Below are positions 4,799-57,564 of a stretch of DNA of 64,000 nt, one piece after another. The number at the start of each line of letters is the position of its first letter. Positions within the stretch are counted from its first letter, which is position 1. Origin of the DNA: Mesorhizobium opportunistum WSM2075 (GTDB taxonomy: Bacteria; Pseudomonadota; Alphaproteobacteria; Rhizobiales; Rhizobiaceae). The notes beneath the pieces are model-generated. The model was not told the DNA's origin, made no database searches, and saw only the letters and a list, made by a program, of their open reading frames with translations. Location of the stretch: contig NC_015675.1 in NCBI RefSeq assembly GCF_000176035.2, forward strand, positions 2,422,001 through 2,486,000, written 5' to 3'. The translations under genes and the position numbers were made by a program.

Positions 4799-6066
4799 TT
4801 GAACCACAGCGCGAACGTCAAAAACCCGCCGCCGCCGAACTCGCGCTGGATCTGGTCGAAATCCTCGCTGGTCAGGATCTTGCCGCTTTCGAGATAGGGC
4901 GCGATGCCCGGGCCGGTGATCGACAGCACGAGGTCGAAGGGCTTCGGCTCGTCGAAGAAGCGCTTCATGTTGATGCCTTTGCCGGCGATGCGGAAATGCG
5001 GCAGCAGCGCCCGGCCTTCGAGCAGGTCCTCGGCCATGGTCAAGGTGGCGAGCCATGCCTGCACCTGCTCCTCGCCGACTTCGAGACCGGTGAGCGGGTT
5101 CTCGCCCTTCTGCTGCGGGCCGGGCAGCCATTCGCGGTCATTGTCTTTCTCGGCGCGGATCGCCCTCCAGTCCTCGCGCGACAGGCGGATCATTTCGAGC
5201 AGCTCTTGGCGTGCGGCCTTGCGGCGCTCCGGCTCGACCACTGGCCAGTTGATCATATGCACCATCGAGATGAAATCGGCGATGCGCCATTCCGAGGAGA
5301 AGATGCTCGAGCCCATCTCGCTGGGCGGGGGCACGAGAATATCCTGCAGCGGCAGCTTGGCGCGCGGGAACAGCATGTGGAAGGAGCCGTCGAAGGTGCC
5401 CTTGAAATCATGCGCCAGCCAGAAATCGGCCTGCGCCATCAGGAACTCGGCATAGCCCTGGAGCCAGTAACCGTCGGCGCGGTCGAAGCGGAAGGTCAGC
5501 GTGGGTGCGGCGTCGCCCTGTGAAACGCCGCCGTGCGACAGCGCGGCCATGATGGCCGCCATGCTTTCATCAGGCGCGATCGTGCCGTCCTCGTTGAGGT
5601 CGATGCCGACATGGGTAAGGTCGATGACCATGCCGATATCGGCCTCGGCGGGGACCGAGCCCAATGTAGCGGCGGATTTTGCCAGGCGGTCGCGGAAGGC
5701 GAGCAGGATGGCGCGGAATTGTTCGTAGGTCAGCGGCTCGGGATTGGGATTGGTCGGCACCGGCAGCTGCATCAGCGGCAGCATGAAGGATTGCGGGCTC
5801 TCGAAGCCATGGCGGTGCAGACCGGCGGCGAGCAACTCAAGTGCTGTGAAGAATTCGCCGGCGCCGGCGGCATAGGCCGATGCCGGGTCTTTCGGAGCGG
5901 CGGCCTCCAGCGTCGACAGGGCGCTGTCGCGCGCGGCCACGGTCTTGGCCTCGAACAGCGCGGTTGCCGCTTCGGGCACGGCGGCGCTGGCGGAAGACAA
6001 GCTGGCGAAGGATAAGGGGAGAAGCACCATGAAGGCGGATGCCAGCAGGCCTGCTGTTCGTGTCAT
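4795..6066 (-). CDS. Secreted protein of unknown function with EF-hand-like loop
   Basis: The 423-residue product has a clear signal peptide (about residues 1-28, ending SASA). A calcium-loop-like DLNEDGTIAPDE lies near residue 155, matching the DxNxDGxIxxxE pattern of an EF-hand. The rest is helical with no catalytic motif that I recognise. The gene converges on the hydrolase gene with a 4-bp stop overlap and is divergent from the CapA-like gene, with only about 40 bp between the starts. I assign no function. Confidence 0.65.
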   Translation of the reverse strand: MTRTAGLLASAFMVLLPLSFASLSSASAAVPEAATALFEAKTVAARDSALSTLEAAAPKDPASAYAAGAGEFFTALELLAAGLHRHGFESPQSFMLPLMQLPVPTNPNPEPLTYEQFRAILLAFRDRLAKSAATLGSVPAEADIGMVIDLTHVGIDLNEDGTIAPDESMAAIMAALSHGGVSQGDAAPTLTFRFDRADGYWLQGYAEFLMAQADFWLAHDFKGTFDGSFHMLFPRAKLPLQDILVPPPSEMGSSIFSSEWRIADFISMVHMINWPVVEPERRKAARQELLEMIRLSREDWRAIRAEKDNDREWLPGPQQKGENPLTGLEVGEEQVQAWLATLTMAEDLLEGRALLPHFRIAGKGINMKRFFDEPKPFDLVLSITGPGIAPYLESGKILTSEDFDQIQREFGGGGFLTFALWFN

Positions 6067-12566: not shown

Positions 12567-13001
12567 TCAGGCCGTGGCGAAGTGGTCGTAAATGCGCTTC
12601 GACAGCCAGAAGCCGACATAGACGGCGAAGCCGCCAATGACGAGGTGTGGCAGGTTGGCGAAGAAGCGGGCGGGGAATTCGATGTCGTTGAGGGAGCGGA
12701 AACCGTTGATGAAGATGCCGGCATCGAGGCAGCCGGAGCCGGTGATCAGCCCGAGCACACCGTCGAACAGATAGACCGAGCCGAACAGCCTGAAATAGAA
12801 CACCGCCTGGCGGTGCGAGATGAAGGCGGCGGCCAGCGCCCAGACGCCGGAGAAGGCGTGCAGCAGGTCGTCGTACCATTGCAGCGAGAACAGGCCGAAC
12901 AGATTGCCGTTTGCATCGTTGAAGGCCGGTATGTAGCCGATGGCGACGACGCCGAAGAACAGGAAAGCATAGGCAACGGCAAGCTTCTGGATCAGCGTCA
13001 T
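12567..13001 (-). CDS. Small four-helix membrane protein
   Basis: The 144-residue product has about four hydrophobic helices (AYAFLFFGVVAIGYI, FSGVWALAAAFI, LFGSVYLFDGVLGLI, HLVIGGFAVYVGFWL). I chose the ATG at 13001 because GGGGA lies about 6 nt upstream; an in-frame ATG nine codons earlier (13028) is the alternative. It is followed after 6 bp by the membrane-anchored protein gene. Family not identified. Confidence 0.65.
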   Translation of the reverse strand: MTLIQKLAVAYAFLFFGVVAIGYIPAFNDANGNLFGLFSLQWYDDLLHAFSGVWALAAAFISHRQAVFYFRLFGSVYLFDGVLGLITGSGCLDAGIFINGFRSLNDIEFPARFFANLPHLVIGGFAVYVGFWLSKRIYDHFATA

Positions 13002-53262: not shown

Positions 53263-54159
53263 ATGGCGTTGGACTGGGACAAGCTACGCGTGTTTCACGC
53301 AGCGGCGGAAGCGGGGTCGTTTACGCACGCGGCCGAGACATTGCACCTGTCGCAATCGGCGATCTCGCGGCAGGTCAGCGCGCTCGAGCATGATGTCGGC
53401 GTGCCGCTGTTCAACCGCCATGCACGCGGCCTGGTGCTGACCGAGCAAGGCGAGATGCTGTTCCGCACGGCGCATGACGTGCTGATGAAGCTCGAGACCA
53501 TCAAGTCGCGGCTGACCGAGACCAAGGACCGTCCTTCCGGCGTGCTCAGGGTGACAACGACCGTTGGCCTCGGCGCCGGCTGGCTGACCGAGCGGGTGCA
53601 GGAATTCATCGAGCTCTATCCCGAAATCAGCCTGCAGCTGATCCTCGCCAACGAGGAGCTCGATCTCACCATGCGCCAGGCCGACTGCGCCATCCGGCTG
53701 CGTCAGCCGCAGCAGCCGGATCTGATCCAGCGCCGCCTGTTCACCGTGCATTTCCACCTCTACGCCGCCCCTTCCTATGTCGCCAAGCATGGCAAGCCAG
53801 CCTCGGTCGCGGAGCTCAGGACCCATCGCATCGTCACCTTCGGCCTGCCGGTGCCTTCGCATCTGTCGGAGCTGAACTGGCTGGAGACGGTGGGCGATTT
53901 CGAGGGCGGCCAGCGTGTACCCTCGCTGCAGATCAACGACATCCTGTCGATCAAGCGGGCCGTGCAGGGCGGTGCTGGCATCGCCATGCTGCCGGACTAT
54001 GTGATCAGCAAGGACTCCGGCTTGGTGCAATTGCTGCCGGAGACCGAGGTGCCGTCCTTCGACACCTATTTCGCCTATCCAGACGCGATGAAGAACCAGG
54101 CCAAGCTGCACGTGTTCCGGGATTTCATCATCGCCAAGGCCAGAAGCTGGTCTTTTTAG
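53263..54159 (+). CDS. lsrB: LysR-family regulator of the LsrB/VtlR type
   Basis: The 298-residue LysR protein has an N-terminal HTH (LRVFHAAAEAGSFTHAAETL, SQSAISRQVSALEHDVGVPL). The substrate domain has GLGAGWLTERVQEF. Placement directly after trxB matches LsrB of Sinorhizobium. In related bacteria LsrB/VtlR controls redox, surface polysaccharide and small-RNA genes. The sRNA candidates at 55.0-55.5 kb may be its targets; this last point is inference. Confidence 0.82.
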   Translation: MALDWDKLRVFHAAAEAGSFTHAAETLHLSQSAISRQVSALEHDVGVPLFNRHARGLVLTEQGEMLFRTAHDVLMKLETIKSRLTETKDRPSGVLRVTTTVGLGAGWLTERVQEFIELYPEISLQLILANEELDLTMRQADCAIRLRQPQQPDLIQRRLFTVHFHLYAAPSYVAKHGKPASVAELRTHRIVTFGLPVPSHLSELNWLETVGDFEGGQRVPSLQINDILSIKRAVQGGAGIAMLPDYVISKDSGLVQLLPETEVPSFDTYFAYPDAMKNQAKLHVFRDFIIAKARSWSF

Positions 54160-54301
54160 GATATGCCGATATTCAGGTGAGGCCGGCCTGCGAACGAGAG
54201 CTTCCTGCGCTTCCGGTACTCACGGACGGAAAGTCCGCTCCGTTCCGGTTCTCGGAAGCTGCCGTTCTCGGCTCGGCCTGACCTGAATCTCGACATATCC
54301 T
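54157..54301. repeat. 145-bp interrupted palindrome after lsrB
   Basis: AGGATATGCCGATATTCAGG at the left pairs imperfectly with CCTGAATCTCGACATATCCT at the right. Homology continues inward through GGCCG...GAGCTTCC, and the centre contains GGACGGAAAGTCCG. It starts at the lsrB stop codon and may serve as its terminator, or it may be a mosaic repeat. Confidence 0.75.
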
Positions 54302-54327
54302 CTGCGGCGCTGCGTCCGCAAGCCGGC

Positions 54328-54788
54328 TCACCCCCGCCAGGGTGTGAGGCGCGGCAGCCAGCCGGGCACGTTGCGGCGGTAGGTCTCGTATTCTGCGCCA
54401 TAACGACGGCTGAGCGTCGGCTCCTCGTAGAGCCTGACGAAGGCGCCCATGATGACCGCGCCGACGGCGGCATAGGCGACAAGCGTCCAGCTCGAGAACA
54501 GCAGCGCCTGGCCGAGGATGATCGACAGCACCGCGACATACATCGGGTTGCGGACGTGGCGGTAGATGCCGCCGATCACCAGCTTTTCGGTCGGCGCGAC
54601 CGGTGCTGGTGTCCCCAGCCTCCAGCGCGGCGAGGATCAGGACCCCAGCCGGCAAGCACAAAGCCCGGCATCGCTGACCAAGGCAGGCCCCAGCGATCGC
54701 TGAGCAGCCACGGGATCAGACCGGCGACCACGCCAGGTGCCGCAATCAGGAAAATAGCGCTGCCGGCAATCGCCGTGAACGTACGCAT
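54328..54788 (-). pseudogene. Decayed isoprenylcysteine methyltransferase-like membrane gene
   Basis: The frame from the ATG at 54788 (RTFTAIAGSAIFLIAAPGVV, good GGAGGAG RBS) shifts after FVLAG. A short second frame reads GVLILAALEA, and a third gives GTPAPVAPTEKLVIGG and then YRHVRNPMYVAVLSIILGQA with a C-terminal YGAEYETYRRNVPGWLPRL. These are the parts of an ICMT-like methyltransferase. At the junction one or two frameshifts and the loss of roughly 14 codons of the expected middle helix leave no single open frame. Confidence 0.7.
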
Positions 54789-55044
54789 TGGCTGGCTCCT
54801 CCCGATTGCCTTAGAAATGAACGCCTGCTGCTCACTTCCACGTCATTGCGCGGTTTTGGCATTTCGCGGCGAAAACCGATCGCTATTCGCGATTCCGGTG
54901 TGACAATGGCCCGATCGCGCGCTGCAATTCGACGATTCCACTGGTCCTATTGGCGTCGGGAGCGGGTTAGACCACAGCCTGCGTCTTTTTGCATGCGTGT
55001 GTTGCAAAATAGATGCTTGTTTCTTGGGCATGATGAGCACATAT

Positions 55045-55165
55045 ATAGATCATCTCCTGGGCGCGTTCTCCTCCCATTAGCGCCCTCGAGTGTTCCCCTC
55101 TGGAGGTTAGCCTTAACAGGCACTTCCATCAAACTCAGCCGGATCTTCATTGATCCGGCTTTTTT
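55045..55165 (+). ncRNA. Candidate AbcR-type sRNA, copy A
   Basis: A TATATA at 55042 could be a -10 box. The first structure, GGGCGC-15 nt-GCGCCC (55059-55085), displays CTCCTCCCA (55068-55076) in its loop, a perfect anti-Shine-Dalgarno. A second CU-rich stretch, TTCCCCTCTGG, follows. The unit ends with the terminator AGCCGGATC-TTCATT-GATCCGGCT and TTTTTT (55137-55165). At about 115-120 nt this matches the layout of AbcR sRNAs, which repress ABC-transporter mRNAs with Hfq. Confidence 0.6.
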
Positions 55166-55222
55166 GTTGCCCAGATGCCCCCCAGGGCGGCTGAGAATTT
55201 CACCTGAATTGCCGCGTAACAG

Positions 55223-55249
55223 TGTCATGTAACCTCTGGTAACATGACA
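55223..55249. promoter_or_regulatory. 27-bp dyad upstream of the middle sRNA-like unit
   Basis: TGTCATGT-A-ACC-TCT-GGT-A-ACATGACA is symmetric over 11 of 12 arm positions. It overlaps a possible -35 box (ATGACA, 55244-55249) that is 18 bp from TATGTA (55268-55273). This fits a regulator site at a promoter. Confidence 0.5.
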
Positions 55250-55279
55250 AGGGCATCCTCCATCTGCTATGTAGACCAT

Positions 55280-55362
55280 AGGACGCGGTGTGGTTCGGAC
55301 GGGAGATGGGGGCATCACTCGAACGACCCGGGCTCAGGCGGCTACCGCGTCCGAACCTTTTT
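55280..55362 (+). ncRNA. Candidate small RNA with alternative stems (middle unit)
   Basis: ACCGCGTCCGAACC (55344-55357) can pair in two exclusive ways. GGACGCGGT (55281-55289) pairs with ACCGCGTCC, or GGTTCGGAC (55292-55300) pairs with GTCCGAACC. The second stem ends in TTTTT and so looks like a terminator. The unit sits between the two AbcR-like candidates and lacks an obvious anti-SD. It could be a separate small RNA or a leader of the next unit. Confidence 0.4.
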
Positions 55363-55384
55363 GCCGAAGCTCGGCGACTGCATA

Positions 55385-55466
55385 TGCGGCGGACCTGCCG
55401 TTTCTCCTCCCAAGAAAACGGTCCGCAAAACAAAACGGCGTCCGGCTCCCCGGGCGTCGTTTTTTA
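55385..55466 (+). ncRNA. Candidate AbcR-type sRNA, copy B
   Basis: A hairpin at 55389-55426 (outer GCGGA/TCCGC, inner CCGTTT/AAACGG) again exposes CTCCTCCCA (55404-55412) in the loop. A terminator with an 11-bp stem, ACGGCGTCCGG-CTCC-CCGGGCGTCGT, and TTTTTT follows at 55435-55466. GCATAT near 55379 could be a -10 box. The design repeats copy A, supporting a tandem pair. Confidence 0.5.
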
Positions 55467-55470
55467 TTTC

Positions 55471-55495
55471 CGCCCCCTCGAATTTCGAGGGGGCG
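55471..55495. terminator. 25-bp palindrome between sRNA region and EF-G-like gene
   Basis: CGCCCCCTCGAA-T-TTCGAGGGGGCG has perfect 12-bp arms and lies 18 bp past the stop of the minus-strand EF-G-like gene. It lacks a clear T tract on the minus strand but probably separates the two transcription units. Confidence 0.6.
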
Positions 55496-55512
55496 TTATA
55501 TCAGGATGGAAA

Positions 55513-57564
55513 TCACGCGGCCTTGCCGTTGGCATTCATCGCCTCGTCCGCGAGGCGGCCGGTGAGGTCGGCCATGTGGTCGAAGACGGCGCGATAGCTG
55601 GCAACGCCCGCGGTTGCCGAGCGCAACTCGATGATCAGGTCGCCGATCTCGGCCTGCGGCATGGTCGCCTCGACGACATCCCATCCCGGCCAGTCGGGCC
55701 GCGCGTCATAACCGAGGATCTGGCCGCGGCGTTGCGGGATCAGCGCGATGATCTTCGACGTCGCGTCGGACGGGGTGACGATCTCGACCTTCATCACCGG
55801 TTCCAGAAGCACCGGCGAGCAGGCGGCCATGCCTTCCTTCATCGCCAGCTTCGCCGCCATCTGGAAGGCCATGTCGGAGGAATCGACCGCATGGTAGGAG
55901 CCGTCAGAGAGGTTGACGGCGACATCGACGACGGGGAAGCCAAGCGGGCCGGACTTCAGGTAGTCGCGCACACCGGTCTCCACCGACTGGATGTAGGTCT
56001 TCGGCACCACGCCGCCAGTGATGGTGTCAGTGAACTGGAAGCCCGAGCCGCGCGGCAGCGGCTTGATCTCGATCACCACATCGCCGAATTGGCCATGGCC
56101 GCCCGACTGCTTCTTGTGGCGGCCGCGCTGCTGCACCGATTTGCGGATCGTCTCGCGGTAGGGCACCGCCGGCGCATGGCCTTCGACCGGAATCTGGTTC
56201 TTGCCCTCGAGCCGCTCGCGCACGACGCGCAGATGCATCTCGCCATGGCCGGACAGTACGGTCTCGGCCGAGTCCTGGTTGTGGCGCAGGTTGAGCGAGG
56301 GATCCTCCTCGGCCAGGCGCTGGATGGCCGCCGACATCTTCACCTCGTCCTTGCGCTCTTTGGGGCGCAGCGCGAAGGCGAAGACCGGTTGCGGCGGTTC
56401 GACATTGAACAGCTGCTTGATGCCGCCCTTGGCCGAGGTCAGCGTCTGGCCGGTCTTGACCTCGTCCAGCTTGCCGAGCGCGACCGTGTCGCCGGCCCTG
56501 GCGGCGGTGAGCTTGAACTGATCCTTGCCGAGCATCCGATAGATGCCGGAGACCTTGGCGGTGCCGCCGCCGGGGAGCCAGAGTTCGGAGCCGTCGGCAA
56601 CCTGGCCTGACAGGATGCGCGACACCGACAGCTTGCCGCCATGCGGCGTGTGAATGGTCTTCATCACCTGGGCCACGGTGGCGCTGCCATCCGGTGCGCC
56701 GAGCCGCTTGCGGGTCGCCTCGATGTCGGGCGCGTCGTGGCGGATCGTCTTCAGCAGGCGCAGCACGCCATTGCCCTTCTCGGCGGTACCGATCAGCACC
56801 GGCGTCACCGCGCCGTCGCGCAGATCGGCCGAGAGGTCGTCGAAGATCGCGTCCTTCGGCGGCTCGATCTCCTCGAGCAGCTGTTCCATCAACTGGTCGT
56901 CATGGTCGGCGAGCGTCTCCAGCATGGAGAAGCGCGCTTCCAGCTCGCGCGCCTTGTCGTCACCCGGTATCTCGGCCACCTCGCTCTCGGCATATTCGCG
57001 GTAGATGTAGGCGCGCTCCAGCGCCAGGTCGATCGAGCCGATGACGACGCCGTCCTTGCGCAGCGGAATCTGGCGCAGCAGGAGCGGTACCGAACTGGCC
57101 GGCTGCAACATCTTCAGCGTGTCGCGCACGCCCGATATCGCCTTGTCGACCTTGTTGAGGAACAGGAGGCGCGGCACGCCGAGATCGTCGAGCTTGCGCA
57201 TGATCAATTGCAGGGCGGGGATCTTCTTTTCATCGGCCTCGGCCACGACCACGGCGAGGTCGCAGGCGGCCAGCACCGGTTCGGCCTCGAAGGAGAATTC
57301 GATCGAGCCGGGGCAGTCGACAAAGGTGATCTGCTCGCCCATGAATTCGGTGGTGGCGATCGTCGCCTCGACGCTCATGGCGTGGGCACGCGCCTCCGGC
57401 GAATGGTCGGAAACGGTGTTGCCGGAAGAAACGGGATTTTGTCGGGGAATGGCGCCCGTACGGGCCAATATGGCTTCGAGAAGTGTCGTCTTACCGCTTG
57501 CGAAGGGACCGACTATGGCAATGCATTTCGGTCCCGTGCGTCGTCCTCCGGCGCGAGTACCCAT
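55513..57564 (-). CDS. Elongation factor G-like GTPase
   Basis: The 683-residue EF-G paralogue has a P-loop GPFASGKTT (residues 19-27), DCPG near 83 and NKVD near 136. EF-G-like domains II-V follow, with [40 protein letters not shown] and a C-terminal IIALIPQRRGQILGYDARP. The G domain is shorter than in the housekeeping FusA and lacks the usual GIDAAKTTTTERIL switch I. It is probably an accessory translation or ribosome factor found in Rhizobiales. The ATG at 57564 is supported by length; it is transcribed alone. Confidence 0.88.
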   Translation of the reverse strand: MGTRAGGRRTGPKCIAIVGPFASGKTTLLEAILARTGAIPRQNPVSSGNTVSDHSPEARAHAMSVEATIATTEFMGEQITFVDCPGSIEFSFEAEPVLAACDLAVVVAEADEKKIPALQLIMRKLDDLGVPRLLFLNKVDKAISGVRDTLKMLQPASSVPLLLRQIPLRKDGVVIGSIDLALERAYIYREYAESEVAEIPGDDKARELEARFSMLETLADHDDQLMEQLLEEIEPPKDAIFDDLSADLRDGAVTPVLIGTAEKGNGVLRLLKTIRHDAPDIEATRKRLGAPDGSATVAQVMKTIHTPHGGKLSVSRILSGQVADGSELWLPGGGTAKVSGIYRMLGKDQFKLTAARAGDTVALGKLDEVKTGQTLTSAKGGIKQLFNVEPPQPVFAFALRPKERKDEVKMSAAIQRLAEEDPSLNLRHNQDSAETVLSGHGEMHLRVVRERLEGKNQIPVEGHAPAVPYRETIRKSVQQRGRHKKQSGGHGQFGDVVIEIKPLPRGSGFQFTDTITGGVVPKTYIQSVETGVRDYLKSGPLGFPVVDVAVNLSDGSYHAVDSSDMAFQMAAKLAMKEGMAACSPVLLEPVMKVEIVTPSDATSKIIALIPQRRGQILGYDARPDWPGWDVVEATMPQAEIGDLIIELRSATAGVASYRAVFDHMADLTGRLADEAMNANGKAA

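Follow-up and report, generated by a model that had tools for sequence, protein, structure and literature searches.

The gap between an lsrB-type regulator gene and a convergent elongation factor G-like gene appears to hold two transcription units, a reading to which we give a probability of roughly 0.6. The first would be an AbcR sRNA driven by LsrB, and the second a separate two-domain sRNA of ~185 nt that is not AbcR2. The second position is probably occupied by one sRNA running from 55280 to about 55466 as a single transcript. Coordinates refer to the window, the whole stretch of 64,000 nucleotides that was analysed, which is part of a 6.88-Mb single-contig genome. Comparison of related sequences demonstrates the features on which we build the second RNA, namely the spacing of an operator, covariation in the closing stem P1 and in the terminator, an invariant loop, linkage to a 3' hairpin and absence from Rfam. 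The initial annotation of this DNA had described two AbcR-like units here, which we call unit 1 and unit 2. The locus contains the following features.

53263-54159, + strand: lsrB/vtlR-type LysR regulator gene, 298 aa, with LysR HTH and substrate domains
54160-54302: dispersed 143-bp repeat directly after the lsrB-type gene, a long near-perfect inverted repeat (fold z -8.4)
54991-55003, + strand: LsrB/VtlR box match GCAT-N3-TG-N3-T, exact to the published consensus
55000-55470, + strand: RNA interval between the lsrB-type gene and the EF-G-like gene
55016-55044, + strand: predicted AbcR promoter, CTTGTT (55016-55021), 17 nt, ACATAT (55039-55044)
55052-55165, + strand: AbcR-family (alphar15) sRNA, from the RF02345 match, fold and motifs M1 and M2
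55068-55075, + strand: aSD1 CUCCUCCC of unit 1, in loop 1
55093-55100, + strand: aSD2 UUCCCCUC of unit 1, between stems 1 and 2
55137-55165, + strand: unit 1 terminator
55216-55243, + strand: three-fold GTAAC operator (GTAAC at 55216, 55229 and 55239), near-fixed in spacing in 80 same-genus loci
55267-55272, + strand: -10-like element CTATGT of the second transcription unit, predicted start near 55280
55280-55357, + strand: 5' structured domain (the block), with P1 (55281-55289 with 55344-55352) and the hairpin CGGG-A-GATG-GGGG-CATC-A-CTCG (55300-55321), supported by covariation on alignment A3
55305-55316, + strand: invariant GATG-GGGG-CATC hairpin (the G-loop), in 43/43 rows of A3
55386-55465, + strand: 3' domain, the earlier unit 2, with invariant GCGGCGGACC, anti-SD loop 55404-55412 and terminator 55432-55463, from the match to model R2 and blastn
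55513-57564, - strand: elongation factor G-like gene

Two hairpin units share a loop motif

The window contains exactly two copies of the shared motif CTCCTCCCA, at 55068-55076 and at 55404-55412, each on the + strand. Both copies lie inside the loop of a 5' hairpin, as the initial annotation had claimed; in the minimum-energy fold of unit 2, the first two letters of CTCCTCCCA are pulled into a weak inner stem. Terminator-like sites also close both units as described (55137-55160 and 55432-55463), and a 1.46-kb stretch contains four such sites on its two strands against 1.3 expected. Each unit folds better than 200 of 200 shuffles, with z scores of -6.0 for unit 1 and -4.5 for unit 2. CTCCTCCCA appears on average 0.57 times in shuffled windows, and since 9 of 100 shuffles reach two or more copies, the count itself is not the evidence. 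It is the setting of the two copies, with their hairpins, terminators and conservation, that exceeds chance. The expected conservation in relatives was found: ar15 is present in 37/37 same-genus genomes searched and unit 2, by blastn, in 143/146. Both units are present, but the two-unit description was incomplete, as a conserved operator and a structured block lie between them (55216-55357).

For alignment we used 80 same-genus loci, made up of the locus in the window itself, the 19 blastn matches ranking next and 60 picked from the remainder of the 143; because they were picked from unit-2 blastn matches, unit 2 is present in all 80 by construction.

The LysR-type gene ends at 54159 and the predicted AbcR start follows ~0.9 kb beyond, in agreement with the distance given earlier for an lsrB-type gene. 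The top solved-structure match of the protein is 9hh1 chain A, a LysR-family regulator, with 480.9 bits over the full length. Our naming of the gene as lsrB rests on this match, on the downstream box and on synteny. Blastn detected the tail of this gene in 74 of the 80 same-genus stretches. The protein has only one cysteine, residue 142. Since S. meliloti LsrB reportedly depends on the oxidation of two cysteines, the sensing mechanism of the protein encoded here may differ.

The repeat directly behind the gene (54160-54302) has 29 matches genome-wide including its own, 15 of them of at least 120 bases at 77% identity or more, and is a dispersed element, MITE- or REP-like. Farther into the gap, on the - strand at 54330-54788, a reading frame with what looks by eye like the start of a membrane protein reaches a stop after 70 codons and may be a broken gene; Pfam gave no match for two overlapping ORFs that occupy other frames of this segment. 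At the opposite end of the locus, a second inverted repeat, CCCCCTCGAATTTCGAGGGGG at 55474-55496, lies between the unit-2 terminator and the convergent EF-G-like gene and is probably the terminator of that gene.

An AbcR sRNA in unit 1, very probably under LsrB control

A cmscan search of the whole window against Rfam 15 returned one match above any cut-off, RF02345 (ar15) at 55052-55165 (45.7 bits against a cut-off of 40, E 4e-06, model positions 1-112 of 112). Brucella AbcR pairs through the motifs M1 CUCCCA and M2 GUUCCC (PMC5461406) and the S. meliloti motifs are given as aSD1 CUCCUCCC and aSD2 UUCCCCUC (PMC8844928); all four can be read in unit 1, and M1 and M2 are found in unit 1 of 80/80 same-genus loci, the window's own included. 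Unit 1 resembles AbcR1/AbcR2 in its full-length match, its two anti-SD motifs, its lsrB neighbour and its LsrB box. Judged by its sequence, it is an AbcR sRNA, a member of a known family, which upholds the earlier assignment of this unit.

The published LsrB consensus GCAT-N3-TG-N3-T lies at -61 to -49 (PMC8844928). Placing the box at 54991-55003 in that position sets the AbcR start at 55052, which is also the first base of the ar15 match. The end proposed earlier for unit 1, 55165, is kept, and its start is most likely 55052 instead of 55045. Of the 80 same-genus loci (own included), 74 carry the box without a mismatch and 6 differ from it at a single letter, and its position is constant to +/-1 nt. 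We read the AbcR promoter against the reference pattern CTTGAC-N17-CTATAT (PMC8844928), and its -35 block is nearly invariant across the 80 loci; a strict sigma-70 scan of the 1.46-kb stretch yielded zero sites and did not pick it up. From motif and position, activation of unit 1 by the adjacent LsrB/VtlR regulator through the 54991-55003 box is very probable.

Whereas S. meliloti has two AbcR RNAs in tandem (PMC8844928), we find one at lsrB and a second ar15 copy 312 kb away (genome positions 2789625-2789723; L013, 1026-1124). This distant copy has M1 and M2, stands apart from lsrB, shows no LsrB box by eye and is flanked by oxygenase-like and dehydrogenase-like reading frames (names assigned by eye). 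Elsewhere in the genus, the host genomes named in a figure legend, apparently for AbcR homologues, include Mesorhizobium loti MAFF303099 (PMC3712013), and the text of a M. huakuii sRNA survey reports that AbcR1/2 were not discovered in strain 7653R (PMC5596092).

Unit 2 is not a second AbcR copy

The reading of the two units as tandem AbcR RNAs did not hold. The AbcR covariance model that identifies unit 1 leaves unit 2 unmatched: in a sensitive Rfam search of 1.4 kb, ar15 gave no match to 55385-55466 at E<=5. The second AbcR motif (M2/aSD2) is also absent from unit 2 of the window, and GUUCCC occurs in unit 2 of 2/80 same-genus loci. Lacking both the ar15 match and M2, unit 2 is not an AbcR; it shares with AbcR1/AbcR2 only an aSD1-type loop in its 5' hairpin.

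It is very unlikely that unit 2 descends from the AbcR2 of an AbcR1/AbcR2 tandem and has degenerated by loss of the middle hairpin. Its place does resemble that of S. meliloti AbcR2, in tandem beside lsrB, and its 5' hairpin carries the same aSD1-type motif, CTCCCA, in 67/80 loci. However, besides the missing ar15 score and aSD2, the conserved signals upstream of the second RNA are GTAAC repeats and not the published LsrB box, and in one locus (L108 of G233, 495-1686) three ar15 matches in a row are followed by block and unit 2, so the second RNA coexists with extra AbcRs.

Other anti-SD RNAs resemble unit 2 in part. In the sensitive search it had sub-threshold matches to anti-hemB and ar14, and one weaker match. 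Like anti-hemB RNA (RF02837, Burkholderia), it combines an anti-SD hairpin with a terminator, but that match reaches 27.0 bits against a cut-off of 49.5 and takes the next downstream inverted repeat as its terminator. With alphar14/NfeR1 ('cuckoo') and CcsR anti-SD sRNAs it shares a hairpin with a CCUCCUCCC-like anti-SD loop; those RNAs are described with two to four such hairpins (PMC10746234, PMC3927594), whereas unit 2 has one, next to a G-loop domain. With this single CCUCCUCCC-type hairpin it scores 22.6 bits against the alphar14 cut-off of 58.8 and falls outside the family, and the CcsR1 model reached 29 against 65.3 in one relative.

A GTAAC operator and a G-loop block precede unit 2

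The alignment of the 80 same-genus loci revealed two conserved islands between the units, the GTAAC operator and a block beginning AGGACGCG. The GTAAC sites lie at -65, -52 and -42 from the start of the P1 stem; 61/80 loci have exactly this spacing, and the remaining 19 deviate from it by at most 3 nt. Spacing is similar in 28 further parsed loci, three of which (L110, L158 and L260) have only two sites. We found TGTAACN5GTAACNT, the two-copy pattern, once in the window's own genome and once or twice in 6/8 other same-genus genomes searched, which makes it nearly private to this locus. In the -10-like element downstream, T at -13 and A at -12 are each kept in 75/80 loci. With GTAAC at a near-fixed distance from this element and no good -35, the sequence suggests a promoter that depends on an activator.

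The spacing of 10 between the last two GTAAC sites resembles the direct repeats of OmpR-family regulators. We rejected ChvI as the regulator, as its published motifs, N-GCC-N8-GCC and TTGC-N3-GCAA (PMC9731502), differ from GTAAC. CenR is a lead only. Its S. meliloti half-sites, in the consensus AgTCAC--C--cGTgAct, are related to GTAAC, and one listed site is at SMc01226 (PMC9561847), an AbcR neighbour (PMC8844928); the R. sphaeroides CenR motif is given as TGA-N8-TGA (PMC9275681).

The block folds into the closing stem P1, the GATG-GGGG-CATC hairpin and a small third stem, and contains a well conserved CUCAGGC; GATGGGGGCATC is found in the block of 80/80 same-genus loci. We examined its pairing on A3, an alignment of 43 sequences (39 distinct) chosen for diversity, whose members were selected by model or motif. 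On A3, 98.1% of the block's pair cells are standard, while structures slid along the alignment pair at 21-47%. Twelve pair cells have changed on both sides, and neither this number nor the covariation score was reached in any of 500 shuffles. These changes cover 4/19 pairs, as many as in 3/500 shuffles; the structures slid by +2 and +3 also reach four such pairs, but with 4 and 8 cells against 12 and with less than half the covariation score. As the four pairs adjoining the G-loop never vary on A3, the stem of this hairpin rests on constancy. In one family genome (G228) it differs in sequence yet still pairs, with GGGG kept (by eye). By folding energy the block is unremarkable (z -1.05, with 24/200 shuffles as good). 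Its pair cells include 63 G-U against 3 A-C, which makes the + strand the likely RNA.

No Rfam 15 family gave a match confined to 55280-55357, at gathering score or at E<=5; the match of ar14 to unit 2 (22.6 bits) starts at 55356. The block of 19 related loci likewise matched no Rfam family at E<=0.05. Coding in the block is unlikely by its sequence. A small protein starting at the internal ATG of the G-loop hairpin was considered and rejected because its frame is not kept: the P1 3' strand falls 64/13/3 into the three frames relative to this ATG over the 80 loci, and the block alignment contains many indels of one or two bases. The frame from the internal ATG is open for 80 codons in 48/80 loci.

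CCTCCC is found in unit 2 of 76/80 same-genus loci, and CCTCC is missing from it in 7/28 further parsed loci (mostly of other genera, with some near-duplicates; three of the 31 sought did not parse) and, by eye, in L276; the G-loop is thus under stronger constraint than the anti-SD. The terminator pairs of unit 2 covary, and the 7-bp upper stem, in which 5/7 pairs never vary, is supported by constancy rather than covariation. The terminator tail is short in many loci (longest T-run 2-4 in 45/80). Here too the pair cells favour the + strand, with 60 G-U against 4 A-C.

Block and unit 2 are linked across several genera

Using a covariance model of the block (R1) and one of unit 2 (R2), we examined the distribution of the second RNA. 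R1 matched 144/146 same-genus genomes, 21/247 genomes of the family (11/109 genera, own genus included), 7/249 genomes of a draw from the order, all of the window's own genus, and 1/240 of a draw from the class, the window's own genome; these searches were run with stricter filters, which can miss diverged copies. R2 matched 30/247 family genomes in 17/109 genera. Ten of these 30 are without an R1 match. In three of the ten (G228, G339 and G266), inspection by eye finds GTAAC sites and a diverged block; the remaining seven have R2 scores of 37.6-42.0 bits. All 21 R1-positive family genomes carry ar15, a co-occurrence expected in part because ar15 is present in 187/247 family genomes. The order along the DNA is also kept: the block is followed by unit 2 in 20/22 loci searched and preceded by ar15 in 17/19, with the same two extra copies in one genome (G030) as the exceptions both times.

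Extra block copies, five in all, occur in 4/146 same-genus genomes. The three-fold operator is kept in 0/5 (one judged by script, the others by eye), and two look decayed. In G030 (contig C73, L239), two G-loop blocks at 5306-5384 and 12793-12871 lie 7.5 kb apart with neither operator nor unit 2. G086, G097 and G105 have one extra copy each; those of G105 and G086 are without unit 2 by eye, and that of G097, downstream of a groEL-like frame, is decayed and has a decayed unit 2.

A pattern scan of contigs returned at least 119 stretches, many of them chance matches in unrelated phyla. R1 was then run on 55 sources, namely 52 of the scan loci, a viral locus and two loci taken by place, a selection that gives no estimate of prevalence; it produced 14 matches, from 12/52 scan loci and 1/2 place-chosen loci. 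Among the matches listed, the 12 named contigs with a scoring block comprise 7 of Mesorhizobium, 2 of Aminobacter, 2 of Aquamicrobium and 1 of Rhizobiaceae. Mobile spread found no support in blastn searches of plasmid records (operator to unit 2) and phage records (whole interval), which gave no match. Carriage by viruses was set aside, the single viral-contig pattern match having failed to score with the RNA model.

Block and unit 2 probably form one transcript

Between P1 and unit 2, the spacer measures 15-107 nt over the 80 loci (15-19 in 19 loci, 28-107 in the rest, 33-47 in 58), and the 80-locus alignment shows no conserved promoter or terminator within it. The absence of a conserved promoter argues for a single RNA, as does the shortest spacer, since with 15 nt a unit-2 promoter would fall inside P1. 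A T-run of 5-7 is found in the spacer of 24/80 loci and may mark the end of the block in some species, or a point of partial termination.

We consider it unlikely that the block (55280-55357) is a separate sRNA terminating after P1 and that unit 2 forms a short anti-SD sRNA by itself, transcribed from its own weak promoter. Such a division would be in keeping with the T-runs, with the five extra block copies that lack unit 2 or have a decayed one, and with the ten R2-positive family genomes without an R1 match. However, the T-runs are not conserved and begin 5 nt behind a long branched stem rather than a compact hairpin; the alignment shows no conserved promoter ahead of unit 2; and three of those ten genomes, G228, G339 and G266, have a diverged block and GTAAC sites as judged by eye.

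Possible roles of the second RNA

In the two-unit reading, LsrB/VtlR bound at 54991-55003 would activate AbcR (55052-55165), which would silence mRNAs by pairing its two CU-rich anti-SD motifs, as is known for AbcR elsewhere. An activator at the three GTAAC sites would direct transcription from near 55280. The resulting RNA would consist of a 5' junction domain with the invariant GGGG-loop hairpin and a 3' anti-SD hairpin ending in the terminator. By analogy with AbcR, the 3' anti-SD loop may silence mRNAs, and the G-loop may pair with CU-rich RNAs, the nearest candidates being the motifs of the adjacent AbcR.

A stronger form of this idea, that the RNA at 55280-55466 is a dedicated AbcR antagonist under a separate activator, in which the invariant UGGGGGCA hairpin mimics an mRNA start and captures AbcR via both motifs, is possible but quite doubtful. 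If G-U pairs are allowed, the core of the G-loop is complementary to M1 as well as M2, which holds for 0.75% of random 12-mers of like composition. In a test of accessibility-weighted pairing between unit 1 and the block, the best contact was CCCCU:GGGGG in the aSD2 linker of AbcR (-4.5 kcal/mol net), and 41/60 shuffled blocks (single-base shuffles) did as well, so pairing energy lends the decoy no support. A precedent in function is the sponge RNA CrfA of Caulobacter crescentus, whose G-rich stem-loop is complementary to, and can capture, sibling sRNAs with CU-rich motifs (PMC12559287). We liken the two by description, not by sequence; CrfA targets alphar8 sRNAs, and here the energy test was negative. 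A contact within the second RNA, between the G-loop and the unit-2 anti-SD loop, was weakened as a candidate because some relatives lose the anti-SD and keep GGGG.

That the block is a riboswitch-like ligand sensor governing exposure or termination of the 3' anti-SD hairpin seems barely plausible. It is a junction domain with an invariant loop and the well conserved CUCAGGC, and in part of the genus GGUUCGGA is a potential alternative partner of the P1 3' strand (over 8 bp in the window). This switching helix is not kept across genera, where the mean longest alternative helix of 4.95 (43 rows), itself raised by two misparsed rows, compares with 4.23 in shuffled sequences. In the extra block copies, unit 2 is missing or decayed.

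Implications

We rate the second RNA, absent from Rfam 15 and unusual in its two-domain build and its genomic pairing with AbcR, as an sRNA of the trans-acting type. Our literature search, mostly at the level of listings and text passages, found no description of it. The AbcR1/2 mRNA interactome of S. meliloti is put at ~6% of protein-coding genes, and its authors name AbcR sponges as plausible and still to be searched for (PMC8844928). The second RNA offers a concrete candidate for such a sponge, being conserved, structured, located beside AbcR in Mesorhizobium and relatives, and equipped with a G-loop that complements the two AbcR motifs. If the decoy reading were true, about a dozen genera would encode an LsrB-driven silencer and its decoy side by side at a single locus. 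The locus also corrects an expectation: here and in the compared same-genus loci, the first AbcR beside lsrB is followed by a different RNA, unlike in the tandem AbcR1/AbcR2 layout of S. meliloti.
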